In this document: positions 29,350-46,035 of the stretch, one piece after another
Layout: each line of letters opens with the position of its first letter
Position numbering within the stretch: position 1 is the first letter of the stretch
Assembly: GCA_947166305.1 (NCBI GenBank)
Contig: CAMVDV010000007.1
Location: 20,982-84,981 of the forward strand
Direction: 5' to 3'
DNA length: 64,000 bases
DNA from: an uncultured Prevotellaceae bacterium
GTDB taxonomy: Bacteria > Bacteroidota > Bacteroidia > Bacteroidales > Bacteroidaceae
Notes under the pieces: model-generated
Told to the model about the DNA's origin: nothing
Databases searched by the model: none
Seen by the model: the letters and a program-made list of their open reading frames with translations, nothing else
Made by a program: the position numbers and the translations under genes

Positions 29350-29964
29350 GTGTTCATCGAGCAGCCTCCAAGACTATTCCGCTGGTTCTATCCCCACGCA
29401 CTGTGGAGGATAGAACCCGAGCGGCGGGCTGTCTATCTCACCTTCGACGACGGTCCCATCCCTGAGGCCACACCCTTCATCCTCGACGTGCTCGACCGTT
29501 TCGACGCAAAGGCCACCTTCTTCATGGTGGGCGACAACGCCGTGAAGTATCCACACTTGGTGGACGAGGTGAGAAGGAGGGGACATCGCATCGGCAACCA
29601 CACCTTCAACCACCTCTCGGGAGCACGTCACACGCCATGGACGTACCTCTCCAACGTGCTGAAGGCCAACGAAGTGCTCCACACCGACCTTTTCCGGCCA
29701 CCGCATGGATGGATAGGTATGGTGCAATACCGTGTGCTCCGATACTGCGGCCTGAAGGTGGTGATGTGGGACGTAGTGACGCGCGACTACAGCCGCCTGC
29801 TCACGGCCGACGACGTCGTGAACAATGTGAAGCGATACGCACGCCCTGGCAGCATCATCACGCTCCACGACTCGCTCAAGAGCATTGACAAGCTCAAACA
29901 TGCCTTGCCCGAGATTCTGGTATGGCTGAAGCAAGAAGGATATGAGCTCGGCATTATTGAATAG
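29350..29964 (+). CDS. Polysaccharide deacetylase (NodB domain)
   Basis: 204 aa, GTG start. Ordered carbohydrate esterase 4 motifs are visible: motif 1 YLTFDDGPIPEAT with catalytic and metal Asp, motif 2 HRIGNHTFNH (HxxxH metal ligands), motif 3 LFRPPHGW and motif 5 IITLHDSLKS. The family removes N- or O-acetyl groups from peptidoglycan, chitin-like or other surface sugars; the substrate here is unknown. No signal peptide is seen, only an amphipathic N-terminus. It overlaps the following queG-like gene by 23 bp and follows DUF2723 closely, suggesting one operon. Confidence 0.93.
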   Translation: MFIEQPPRLFRWFYPHALWRIEPERRAVYLTFDDGPIPEATPFILDVLDRFDAKATFFMVGDNAVKYPHLVDEVRRRGHRIGNHTFNHLSGARHTPWTYLSNVLKANEVLHTDLFRPPHGWIGMVQYRVLRYCGLKVVMWDVVTRDYSRLLTADDVVNNVKRYARPGSIITLHDSLKSIDKLKHALPEILVWLKQEGYELGIIE

Positions 29965-30898
29965 CAACGCAGTCAAAGCCCAGGCCAAACGCTTGGGCTT
30001 TGTTGCATGTGGACTGGCTCCGGCAGAGCCCGTGGCTGAGCCTTTTGCCGCACACCTGCGGCGGTGGCTGAGCCTGGGCTACTGCGCCGACATGGACTAT
30101 ATGCGCCGCAACGTCGACAAGCGCCTGGACCCCAGGCTCCTCATGCCCGGCGTGCGCACCATCGTGAGCCTTGCCATGAACTTCATGCCTGCCCGCTTCC
30201 AGCCCGCCATCAGCCTTTATGCTCAGGGAAAAGACTACCACGACGTCCTGCGCGAACGTATGTTCCGCCTCATGGCCGACATGGGTCTGGAGGGACGCGC
30301 CTTCGTCGACACCGCCCCCGTGCTGGAGCGCTACTGGGCATGGCGCAGCGGAGTGGGCGTCATCGCCGGCCCCGGCGGCTTCATCAGCGTGCCGAACTGC
30401 GGACCGACCGTCTTCCTTGGAGAATTATTCCTGACGGAGGAGGCAGACAAGTATGATAGCCCCCTCCCCGCTCCCCCTTTGGGGGAGTGCCTCATTGCCG
30501 CTAAAAACACTTGCCAATTCAACGAGATTGAGGCACTCCCCCAAAGGGGGAGCGGGGAGGGGGCTTTTTGTCCTGCCCTCACCCCCGAGGGCCTCGATGC
30601 ACGACGGTGCATCAGCTATCAGACCATCGAGCACCGTGGGCCTTTGCCCGACGGGTTCCGACTGCACCAGACCTTCTACGGATGCGACCGCTGCCTGCGC
30701 GCCACGCCCGGATTTGCCGAGGCTAAACCCACTGAAGAGCCTGACTTCCAGCCAACTGACGCGCTCCTGGAGATGACGCCCGACGATTGGTTCTCGCTCA
30801 CGGTGGAGCAATATCGGAGCCTCTTCAAAGGCTCTGCCGTGAAGCGCGCCAAGTATGAAGGCCTCATGCGCAACATCGCGTGCTGGCTCAGAAAATAG
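29942..30898 (+). CDS. queG: QueG-like epoxyqueuosine reductase, degenerate and carrying a palindromic insertion
   Basis: 318 aa. The N-terminal B12-binding half (KRLGFVACGLAPAEPVAE, FVDTAPVLERYWAWRSGVGV) and the tail GSAVKRAKYEGLMRNIACWL are clearly QueG, the last enzyme of queuosine synthesis in tRNA. However, the first iron-sulfur motif (normally CxxCxxCxxxCP) is replaced by a 108-bp palindromic element encoding SPLPAPPLGECLIAAKNTCQ and more. The second reads GCDRCLRATP, lacking its third Cys, and the usual GWxGKN loop is GVIAGPG. The frame is intact but the enzyme is probably inactive or changed. It overlaps the deacetylase gene. Confidence 0.85.
   Translation: MSSALLNSNAVKAQAKRLGFVACGLAPAEPVAEPFAAHLRRWLSLGYCADMDYMRRNVDKRLDPRLLMPGVRTIVSLAMNFMPARFQPAISLYAQGKDYHDVLRERMFRLMADMGLEGRAFVDTAPVLERYWAWRSGVGVIAGPGGFISVPNCGPTVFLGELFLTEEADKYDSPLPAPPLGECLIAAKNTCQFNEIEALPQRGSGEGAFCPALTPEGLDARRCISYQTIEHRGPLPDGFRLHQTFYGCDRCLRATPGFAEAKPTEEPDFQPTDALLEMTPDDWFSLTVEQYRSLFKGSAVKRAKYEGLMRNIACWLRK
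30458..30565. repeat. 108-bp palindromic mini-element inserted in queG
   Basis: Perfect 37-bp inverted repeats (30458-30494 and 30529-30565), beginning AGCCCCCTCCCCGCTCCCCC, flank a 34-nt loop. The 108 bp equal 36 codons and contain no stop in the queG frame. It is the longest and least decayed copy of the CCCCCTTTGGGGG element family in the window. Confidence 0.93.
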
Positions 30899-44522: not shown

Positions 44523-44558
44523 AAGTTTATTAGTTTAGGATTAAGTATGTTTCGCTTG

Positions 44559-44566
44559 CAAAGATA
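44559..44566 (-). promoter_or_regulatory. -7 box of the zinc metallopeptidase gene
   Basis: TATCTTTG on the minus strand, 36 bp before the ATG at 44522. Confidence 0.75.
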
Positions 44567-44610
44567 CGAATTATTCTGCATTCTCCGTGCGCTGTTCCCT
44601 ATTTTTTTCG

Positions 44611-44618
44611 TATCTTTG
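44611..44618 (+). promoter_or_regulatory. -7 box of queA
   Basis: TATCTTTG (then CA), only 10 bp before the ATG at 44629. The mRNA leader would be very short, almost leaderless. Confidence 0.75.
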
Positions 44619-44628
44619 CAGCCGATTT

Positions 44629-46035
44629 ATGGAAACGAAGCACATTCACATACGCGACTACGACTACCCTCTGCCCGACGACCGCATCGCAAAGTTCCCA
44701 CTCTCGGAGCGCGATGCAAGCAAACTCCTTGTCTACGACGGCGGACGCATCAGCGAGACTCACTTCCGCTCGCTGCCCGAATTGCTGCCCGAAGGCAGCC
44801 TCATGGTGTTCAACAACACGCGGGTCATCCAGGCTCGCCTGCACTTCCGCAAGAAGACAGCACAGCCTCCTTCAGGGGAAGACCCTCGTGCAGAGGAAAT
44901 CGTCAATAGTAAATTGTCAAATAATACATGCCTTGGTGCCCTCATCGAAGTGTTTCTCCTGGAGCCGGCACAGCCCGCTGAGTATCAGGAGAACTTCGCC
45001 GCCAAGGGTCACTGCTCGTGGTATTGCCTCGTGGGCAACCTCAAAAAATGGAAAGAAGGCAAGCTCGAGAGGGATTTCGAAATTCAAAATTCAAGATTCA
45101 AACTCACGGCGGAACGCATCGGGGCACACGGCACAAGCCAAGAGATAAGGTTCGAATGGCAAAAGACCCCCCTGCCCCCTTCAGGGGGAGAACTGGGCGA
45201 CGGACAGAAGTCCCCCCTAAAGGGGGCGGAGGGGGTCTCCTTTGCCGAAGTCATCGACGCCATCGGCGAGCTTCCCATCCCGCCCTATCTCAACAGAAAG
45301 ACTGAGGAAAGTGACAAGACGACCTACCAGACCGTCTATTCCAAAATAAAAGGTTCGGTGGCAGCGCCCACGGCTGGGCTCCACTTCACCGAGCGTGTCC
45401 TCAAGGACATCGAACGCCGGGGCATCGAGCGCGAGGAGGTGACGCTCCACGTCGGCGCCGGCACCTTCCGACCCGTCAAGAGCGAAGACATCGGAGGGCA
45501 CGACATGCACACCGAACACATCGCCGTGCATCGCCACACCATAGAGCGTCTGCTGGCACACGGCGGCGAGGCCATCGCCGTCGGCACAACCAGTGTGCGC
45601 ACACTCGAAAGCCTCTACTACATGGGAGTGATGGCAGACCCCTCTAAATCTCCCCTTAAAGGGGAGACTTCCTGCGCTGATAGCTCCCTCCCTTTAAGGG
45701 AGGGCTGGGGTGGGTCCGGACTCCACGTTCCCCAATGGATGCCGTATGAGTACGACAATTCGCTCTCCACGGTGGAAGCCCTCGAAGCCCTGCTCCGCTA
45801 CATGGACGAGCGAGGCGAGCAAGTGCTACATGCCAGCACACAAATCATCATTGCTCCCGGATACAAGTACCACATCGTGCGCCGCATGATCACGAACTTC
45901 CACCAGCCGCAGAGCACGCTTCTGCTGCTCGTCAGCGCCTTCATCGGCGACGCATGGCACGATGTCTACGACTACGCCCTTAGCCACGACTTCCGATTCC
46001 TCAGCTATGGCGACAGTTCCCTGCTCATTCCTTGA
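44629..46035 (+). CDS. queA: S-adenosylmethionine:tRNA ribosyltransferase-isomerase with four repeat insertions
   Basis: 468 aa from METKHIHIRDYDYPLPDDRI; bacterial QueA is usually about 350. Conserved blocks are intact: FPLSERDASKLLVYDGGRIS, LMVFNNTRVIQARLHF, SVAAPTAGLHFTERVLKDIE, TLHVGAGTFRPVKSEDI, AVGTTSVRTLESL and NFHQPQSTLLLLVSAF. It builds the epoxyqueuosine precursor on tRNA. The extra length comes from four in-frame repeat inserts: 44866-44932, 45073-45104, 45164-45240 and 45636-45717. All fall between conserved blocks, so activity is plausible. The ORF-track start (44587) precedes the promoter. Confidence 0.94.
   Translation: METKHIHIRDYDYPLPDDRIAKFPLSERDASKLLVYDGGRISETHFRSLPELLPEGSLMVFNNTRVIQARLHFRKKTAQPPSGEDPRAEEIVNSKLSNNTCLGALIEVFLLEPAQPAEYQENFAAKGHCSWYCLVGNLKKWKEGKLERDFEIQNSRFKLTAERIGAHGTSQEIRFEWQKTPLPPSGGELGDGQKSPLKGAEGVSFAEVIDAIGELPIPPYLNRKTEESDKTTYQTVYSKIKGSVAAPTAGLHFTERVLKDIERRGIEREEVTLHVGAGTFRPVKSEDIGGHDMHTEHIAVHRHTIERLLAHGGEAIAVGTTSVRTLESLYYMGVMADPSKSPLKGETSCADSSLPLREGWGGSGLHVPQWMPYEYDNSLSTVEALEALLRYMDERGEQVLHASTQIIIAPGYKYHIVRRMITNFHQPQSTLLLLVSAFIGDAWHDVYDYALSHDFRFLSYGDSSLLIP
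44866..44932. repeat. Insertion 1 in queA: half-element plus AT filler
   Basis: CTCCTTCAGGGGAAGACCCT followed by CGTCAATAGTAAATTGTCAA, translated as PPSGEDPRAEEIVNSKLSNN. Two repeat families are joined here. Confidence 0.7.
45073..45104. repeat. Insertion 2 in queA: AAATTCAAAATTC filler
   Basis: TTTCGAAATTCAAAATTCAA plus GATTCAAACTC, translated as FEIQNSRFKL. A 9-bp repeat. Confidence 0.65.
45164..45240. repeat. Insertion 3 in queA: palindromic mini-element
   Basis: Begins AGACCCCCCTGCCCCCTTCA and ends GGGGGCGGAGGGGGTCTCC. The ends are imperfect inverted repeats around CCCCCTTTAGGGGG-type cores. Translated as TPLPPSGGELGDGQKSPLKG. Confidence 0.88.
45636..45717. repeat. Insertion 4 in queA: palindromic mini-element (older copy)
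   Basis: AGACCCCTCTAAATCTCCCC plus TTAAAGGGGAG at the left, CTCCCTCCCTTTAAGGGAGG plus CTGGGGTGGGTCC at the right, divergent inverted repeats. Translated as DPSKSPLKGETSC and SSLPLREGWGGSG. Confidence 0.88.

Follow-up and report, generated by a model that had tools for sequence, protein, structure and literature searches.

A palindrome in frame within a Bacteroidota queG gene shares its ends with a homing-endonuclease-like element, hinting at how such inserts spread

How palindromic elements find their way into coding sequence has, to our knowledge, been an open question since the Rickettsia elements were described. The same question is raised by a 64,000-nt stretch of DNA from an uncultured Prevotellaceae bacterium of the gut (hereafter the window), in which queG, the gene for epoxyqueuosine reductase, contains a 108-bp palindrome (Table 1). 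A sequence-only reading had described perfect 37-bp arms around a 34-nt loop, exactly 36 codons long and stop-free in the queG frame, and re-examination of the sequence bore this out. When mismatches were allowed, the arms reached 48 nt at 90%, and the RNA fold of the palindrome had an energy of −92.1 kcal/mol (z = −12.2 relative to shuffles). BLASTN of the 108 bp against the genome matched dozens of places, and these near-identical copies confirmed that the palindrome is real and far beyond chance. Within the 64-kb window, BLASTN found no second copy, and Rfam matched no RNA family except one tRNA. Related copies had also been proposed in other genes of the window, yet these proved to be different families or remnants rather than members of the family to which the queG element belongs. 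The proposal stood for queA (44545-46032) in so far as this gene does hold two different C-rich palindromic inserts, both in frame, but they are other C-rich palindromes; it did not stand for rluA, which has a short C-rich remnant (TPQPPLGG).

Table 1 Features of the queG palindrome, its host gene and the queA inserts, in window coordinates
Feature	Position	Strand	Details
Host gene queG (epoxyqueuosine reductase)	29942-30898	+	Variant without the distal [4Fe-4S] cluster cysteines
Family A palindromic element	30458-30565		108 bp; queG codons 173-208; peptide SPLPAPPLGECLIAAKNTCQFNEIEALPQRGSGEGA
Left arm	30458-30494	+	37 nt; first 33 nt AGCCCCCTCCCCGCTCCCCCTTTGGGGGAGTGC are the terminus conserved family-wide
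Mini-hairpin nested in left arm	30471-30487		CTCCCCCTTTGGGGGAG; feature common to the arms of DUF559 elements
Central loop, variable	30495-30528	+	34 nt
Right arm	30529-30565	-	37 nt; perfect reverse complement of the left arm
Mini-hairpin nested in right arm	30536-30552		
C-rich palindrome inside queA	45167-45234		Peptide TPLPPSGGELGDGQKSPLKGAEG; same kind as the queG element, different family
Second C-rich insert inside queA	45650-45714		Peptide SPLKGETSCADSSLPLREGWGG
QueG clade loci	29942-30898 (window); L046-L050, L059, L060, L062		Four distal-cluster cysteines absent

We refer to the element and its copies as family A. From the genome (G000), a 2.94-Mb metagenome-assembled genome (MAG) of 71 contigs that is 84% complete, BLASTN yielded 35 full copies of 93-132 bp in addition to partial ones, and an 818-kb sample chosen without regard to the repeat contained 18, which extrapolates to ~65 in the genome. 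Across 66 arms, the outer 33 nt agreed on average at 97% of positions, and positions 34-45 at 66%; pairwise identity between copies was 95% in the arms and 62% in the loops. The perfect arms had been taken as a sign of recent arrival. Since the arms are almost uniform in all copies while the loops are not, and since orthologous copies in sister species share their arms while their loops have diverged, arm perfection cannot serve as a clock. Two reading frames are used across the same arm DNA, giving SPLPAPPLGEC..EALPQRGSGEGA or xAPSPLPLWGSA..HSPKGGAGRGx, and it is therefore the DNA, not the peptide, that is conserved. No target-site duplications were seen by eye in the flanks of the 35 copies, where the exact target junctions are approximate because the empty sites come from species only ~75-90% identical. 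Three copies (L013, L015 and L026) lie inside remnants of older C-rich palindromes, and these nested insertions hint at a preference for palindrome centres.

The ends of family A recur around a gene. At G000:C13:51878-52372, a gene for a 131-aa DUF559 protein stands between identical 33-bp arms, and we refer to this locus as the long form. The AlphaFold2 (AF2) model of the protein (pLDDT 88.6) best matched NGO0050, the homing endonuclease I-Bth0305I and Vsr, and a profile search returned 3hrl (1.5e-32) and 3r3p (2.4e-8). Both the fold and the active-site pattern are those of EDxHD/Vsr enzymes, with invariant E39, E78, D80, H84 and D93. DUF559 has been assigned to the EDxHD family in Thermosynechococcus and suggested to be a homing endonuclease (PMC9403480), and a Caulobacter DUF559 protein is responsible for an SOS response, for which the authors propose double-strand breaks (PMC12907096).

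Each of the five DUF559 genes of G000 is bordered by C-rich arms that contain a nested mini-hairpin, and the arms of the long form also surround 70-78% identical DUF559 proteins in three further Bacteroidales MAGs, of which two are of ruminant origin. Exact arms of at least 12 bp were present at about half of 34 DUF559 loci in relatives, a set that includes the five of G000, compared with 3 of 300 controls. A GTDB scan of Bacteroidota identified inverted arms scoring above all 247 control placements at 51 of 62 DUF559 loci, and arms were undetectable at 11 of the 62. In a broader sample of the phylum, exact arms of at least 12 bp accompanied only 7 of 26 loci, and many arms look degenerate. 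The pairing of long and short forms was repeated in a second genome, G016: three short palindromes (135-146 bp) carry the arms of one 477-bp DUF559 element, either exactly or with one mismatch in one arm, and the control pattern gave zero matches. No DUF559 gene was detected in G027 or G012, both incomplete genomes, despite their many short copies. A DUF559 gene with C-rich arms was also present in a Candidatus Marithrix MAG (Gammaproteobacteria; L361), suggesting cross-phylum spread or contamination. Our literature search, which covered few subscription journals and preprints, found no report linking DUF559 to inverted repeats or palindromic elements; papers that join DUF559 with the word palindromic deal, by title and abstract, with other subjects.

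These shared ends hint at how the inserts spread. The reading that we favour, with reasonable but guarded confidence, is that the queG palindrome is non-autonomous and derives from DUF559-endonuclease elements that enter reading frames and are then maintained as translated surface loops. The 108 bp would be a MITE-like copy of a selfish element whose long form carries an EDxHD/Vsr-type DUF559 endonuclease between the same nested-hairpin arms (5′-AGCC...GGCT-3′). The element would enter genes and intergenic DNA alike, often swapping out a few target codons. DUF559, which we infer to be the mobiliser of the short elements, would make the break or nick that starts the spread, repair would copy the element in with a small loss of target, and the short forms would be moved in trans. 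Out-of-frame insertions would then be purged, and in-frame copies, available to selection because the arms are open in most frames, would be kept, the host translating the insert as a floppy surface loop. Uniform arms with drifting loops are what would be expected if only intact arms are copied.

Unlikely, although the most serious of the alternatives, is that the palindromes are moved by other machinery, whether an IS200/RAYT-type Y1 transposase or replication and repair acting on hairpins, and that DUF559 is a passenger that settled in palindrome loops. REPINs, the hairpin elements of REPIN/RAYT systems, have conserved ends and variable loops and are thought to be moved in trans, and the conserved ends and variable loop of family A recall them; moreover, the genome encodes two Y1_Tnp proteins. 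However, neither Y1_Tnp locus has family A ends or a REP motif, and the otherwise obvious RAYT/Y1 partner was rejected on the former ground. Family A also differs from REPINs in its AGCC ends, the lack of a GTAG tag and of a linked Y1 transposase, and its mostly genic location, and the GTAG-REP family of this genome stays outside genes, a very different behaviour. That other open reading frames can occupy palindromes is indicated by a 23S-rRNA-IVP (PF05635) gene between the inverted repeats of another palindrome family, but the recurrence of the DUF559/arm link across the phylum weighs against a mere passenger. The IVP was likewise discarded as a partner of family A, as IVP genes have other arms. 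This four-helix IVP gene (L131, G000:C34:11321-11731) lies between inverted ATTGACCATTGACCATT arms, a motif that is read as NGQWSMVNGQC in frame in genes of related species. The GTAG-tagged REP/REPIN-like family, TGTAGGGACGCGCCGTGGCGCGTCC, has 16 copies in the 818 kb, with 0/16 in called genes, and is located on contigs C1, C2, C3, C5 and C11 of G000 (e.g., C1:25095-25472).

Orthologues from eight close species mostly have short empty loops where G000 carries an element. The wording of the sequence-only reading, in which the palindrome was inserted, implied a clean insertion; instead, the empty queG loop of 16 residues became 37, the element having replaced most of it, and the same holds in other genes, where LLTDGTDDLKV became LLE[element]LRV and HALNNGGDLFFLW became RIIPCPG[element]FFLW. 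In other species, the same loops contain different palindromes (SPLKGDF.., PLKGRL..PSREGRGG, GARGKGQ..LAPCPSPLAP, NGQWSMVNGQC and EELRMKNEE..FFILHSS). Because the loops are empty or otherwise filled in orthologues, permissive surface loops are where the elements land, or where they survive, at the cost of some target codons. The element in pmbA is 99/100 identical to its counterpart in the sister species G020, and the flanks are 83-85% identical, a pattern that would fit either recent transfer or separate insertion events at one site and that is suggestive of homing into an empty allele.

The queG site has a history of its own. In an orthologue alignment, the QueG proteins of nine species lacked four cysteines, namely the first three in motif one and the final one in motif two; the protein encoded in the window retains Cys210, 223, 248 and 251, and its eighth cysteine is replaced by Thr255. 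In the S. thermophilus QueG structure, Cys184, 187, 190 and 243 hold the cluster distant from cobalamin and the other four hold the near cluster (PMC4646009), and alignment to QueG from the PDB showed that the cysteines missing in the clade are exactly the distal-cluster set. The 16-residue loop thus vacated is empty in five species, contains related family A elements in G000 and G020, and is filled by unrelated palindromes in G027 and G013. The insert occupies a loop freed by loss of the distal Fe-S cluster in the clade, a loss that had already taken place when the element entered queG, and this would explain why QueG tolerates the insert. In the AF2 model of QueG, the insert has a pLDDT below 50 and the remainder is well folded.

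The absence of four conserved cysteines, with an insert at that very site, could also mean that queG is a decaying pseudogene and that the insert is tolerated only since the gene is dead. We regard this as highly improbable, given that the cysteine loss is common to nine species and confined to the distal-cluster set, and that the frame is open and 70-78% conserved. Nor is there a QueH backup: none of 23 genomes of the genus encodes both QueG and QueH, the two being mutually exclusive (Fisher p ~1e-5), and because of this exclusivity the one-cluster QueG is probably functional.

The sequence-only reading had likened the palindrome to the Rickettsia palindromic elements (RPEs) as an invader of coding sequence, and its genomic distribution supported that likeness in behaviour. 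Among the 35 family A copies, 25 are genic, and 24 of these keep the frame open, including copies whose length is no multiple of three (one of the 24, L007, was assigned from its open frame and look alone); at a chance of 1/3 each, the probability of at least 24/25 in frame is ~6e-11. Pfam identified the hosts as GMP synthase (guaA), dihydrolipoamide dehydrogenase (lpd), RmlD, Maf, RNase R (rnr), a histidine kinase, ABC ATPases, lipoate ligase, TldD/PmbA (two), DUF554, an AIRS-domain protein, AroE, MetH, ThiD and others. The only out-of-frame genic copy (L037, G000:C41:4835-4966) lies in a GH127 gene and is a possible pseudogene or assembly error. Family A elements are open in ~4/6 frames, whether genic or not; as openness is similar inside and outside genes, it is built in, and it is the frame that is selected. 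In the 818-kb sample, 11 of the 18 copies lie in called genes (13 after adding thiD and aroE) versus 74% of random points, the 11/18 being a lower bound because the simple gene caller under-calls and missed these two genes. Seven further palindrome families, among them the GTAG-type REP family, served as an internal control; none of their 51 copies in this sample was found in a called gene. Of the other C-rich palindromes, which are of the same broad kind as family A, 2 of 9 were.

Removal of the insert before or during translation, by RNA excision as in 23S rRNA intervening sequences, by splicing or by ribosomal bypass, would leave the protein unaffected, and the very stable mRNA hairpin, a likely RNase III substrate, together with the IVP gene inside another palindrome family, could be cited in its favour. 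Excision or bypass would nevertheless impose no frame constraint, and with nearly all genic copies in frame, including those of lengths not divisible by three, we give this explanation only a very slim chance. Finally, that the 36 residues are an ordinary conserved segment of QueG has next to no probability and was ruled out by the orthologue alignment: a related element does occupy this position in one sister species (G020), but most orthologues lack the residues, what a few of them have instead comes from a related element or an unrelated palindrome, and the same DNA occurs in unrelated genes in two reading frames. The outcome that the sequence-only reading had named as refuting it, the same residues as a conserved segment in orthologues, thus did not appear.

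Returning to the derivation from DUF559 elements, we found that the endonuclease domain itself sits in frame within host proteins. Pfam placed DUF559 between domains of LeuRS, an NAD-epimerase, IleRS and acetyl-CoA synthetase (Acs), and inside MetH (Flavobacterium cucumis), RecG (Tenacibaculum gallaicum) and ValRS (Dysgonomonas), and the peptides flanking such in-frame domains bear the arm signature on both sides. In a search at genus level, made in the genus of G296, three species had an occupied metH and a fourth an empty one, the loop again being replaced. Several genera share the MetH site and four share the RecG site, a distribution that would fit homing to a conserved target. Pfam scans of the insert-bearing proteins detected no intein domain, and within our incomplete coverage of the literature we found no report of in-frame DUF559 insertion without a splicing domain. 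By eye from sequence, DUF559 also stands in frame in helicases of several Bacteroidota whose sequences resemble type I restriction HsdR (L242, L244, L248 and L257).

How does this element compare with known systems? The passages on RPEs in one review describe palindromes of ~100-150 bp, in several families, in frame in unrelated genes and translated as an extra peptide, and name no mobilising enzyme (PMC10969869). Family A resembles them by behaviour, not by sequence, as an in-frame, stop-free palindrome in protein genes; it differs in belonging to another phylum, in its GC-rich nested-hairpin arms, which are C-rich and shared with Bacteroidota elements, in its loop replacement and in having a long form with an endonuclease ORF. 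Like a MITE, it is a short, non-autonomous inverted-repeat element whose ends are shared with a longer ORF-bearing form in the same genome, as again in G016, but neither a transposase nor a target-site duplication was seen, and its partner ORF is a homing-type nuclease, encoded within the insert in the long form only. Intervening sequences of 23S rRNA are likewise stem-forming inserts that may carry a small ORF (IVP, S23), but they lie in rRNA and are excised, whereas family A lies in mRNA and keeps the frame. While DUF559 shares fold and active-site pattern with I-Bth0305I and Vsr, its elements differ from I-Bth0305I and other EDxHD nucleases in lying outside group I introns and inteins, in their palindromic arms and in their in-frame fusion to host proteins with no splicing domain found. 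By the tests run, the family A/DUF559 element is not a REPIN, an intein or a group I intron.

On a broader proposal we are evenly divided: these elements may form an undescribed class of Bacteroidota mobile element, in which an EDxHD/DUF559 homing endonuclease with nested-hairpin arms would be inserted directly in host frames without a splicing domain, reside as an internal domain of essential enzymes (LeuRS, ValRS, IleRS, MetH and RecG) and shed palindromic non-autonomous copies that remodel surface loops proteome-wide. As a by-product, the analysis brought to light a lineage of QueG that has only one Fe-S cluster and so represents a natural one-cluster form of epoxyqueuosine reductase. Palindromic inserts of this kind would also be a source of misannotated peptides. 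Because an endonuclease is linked to the elements, sister species have empty sites, and cultured Flavobacterium, Tenacibaculum, Dysgonomonas and Leeuwenhoekiella include carriers, the question of how palindromes invade genes becomes directly testable. For the bacteria that carry them, the elements would amount to selfish DNA that remodels protein loops across the proteome, and to a homing-type nuclease carried in aminoacyl-tRNA synthetases without an intein.
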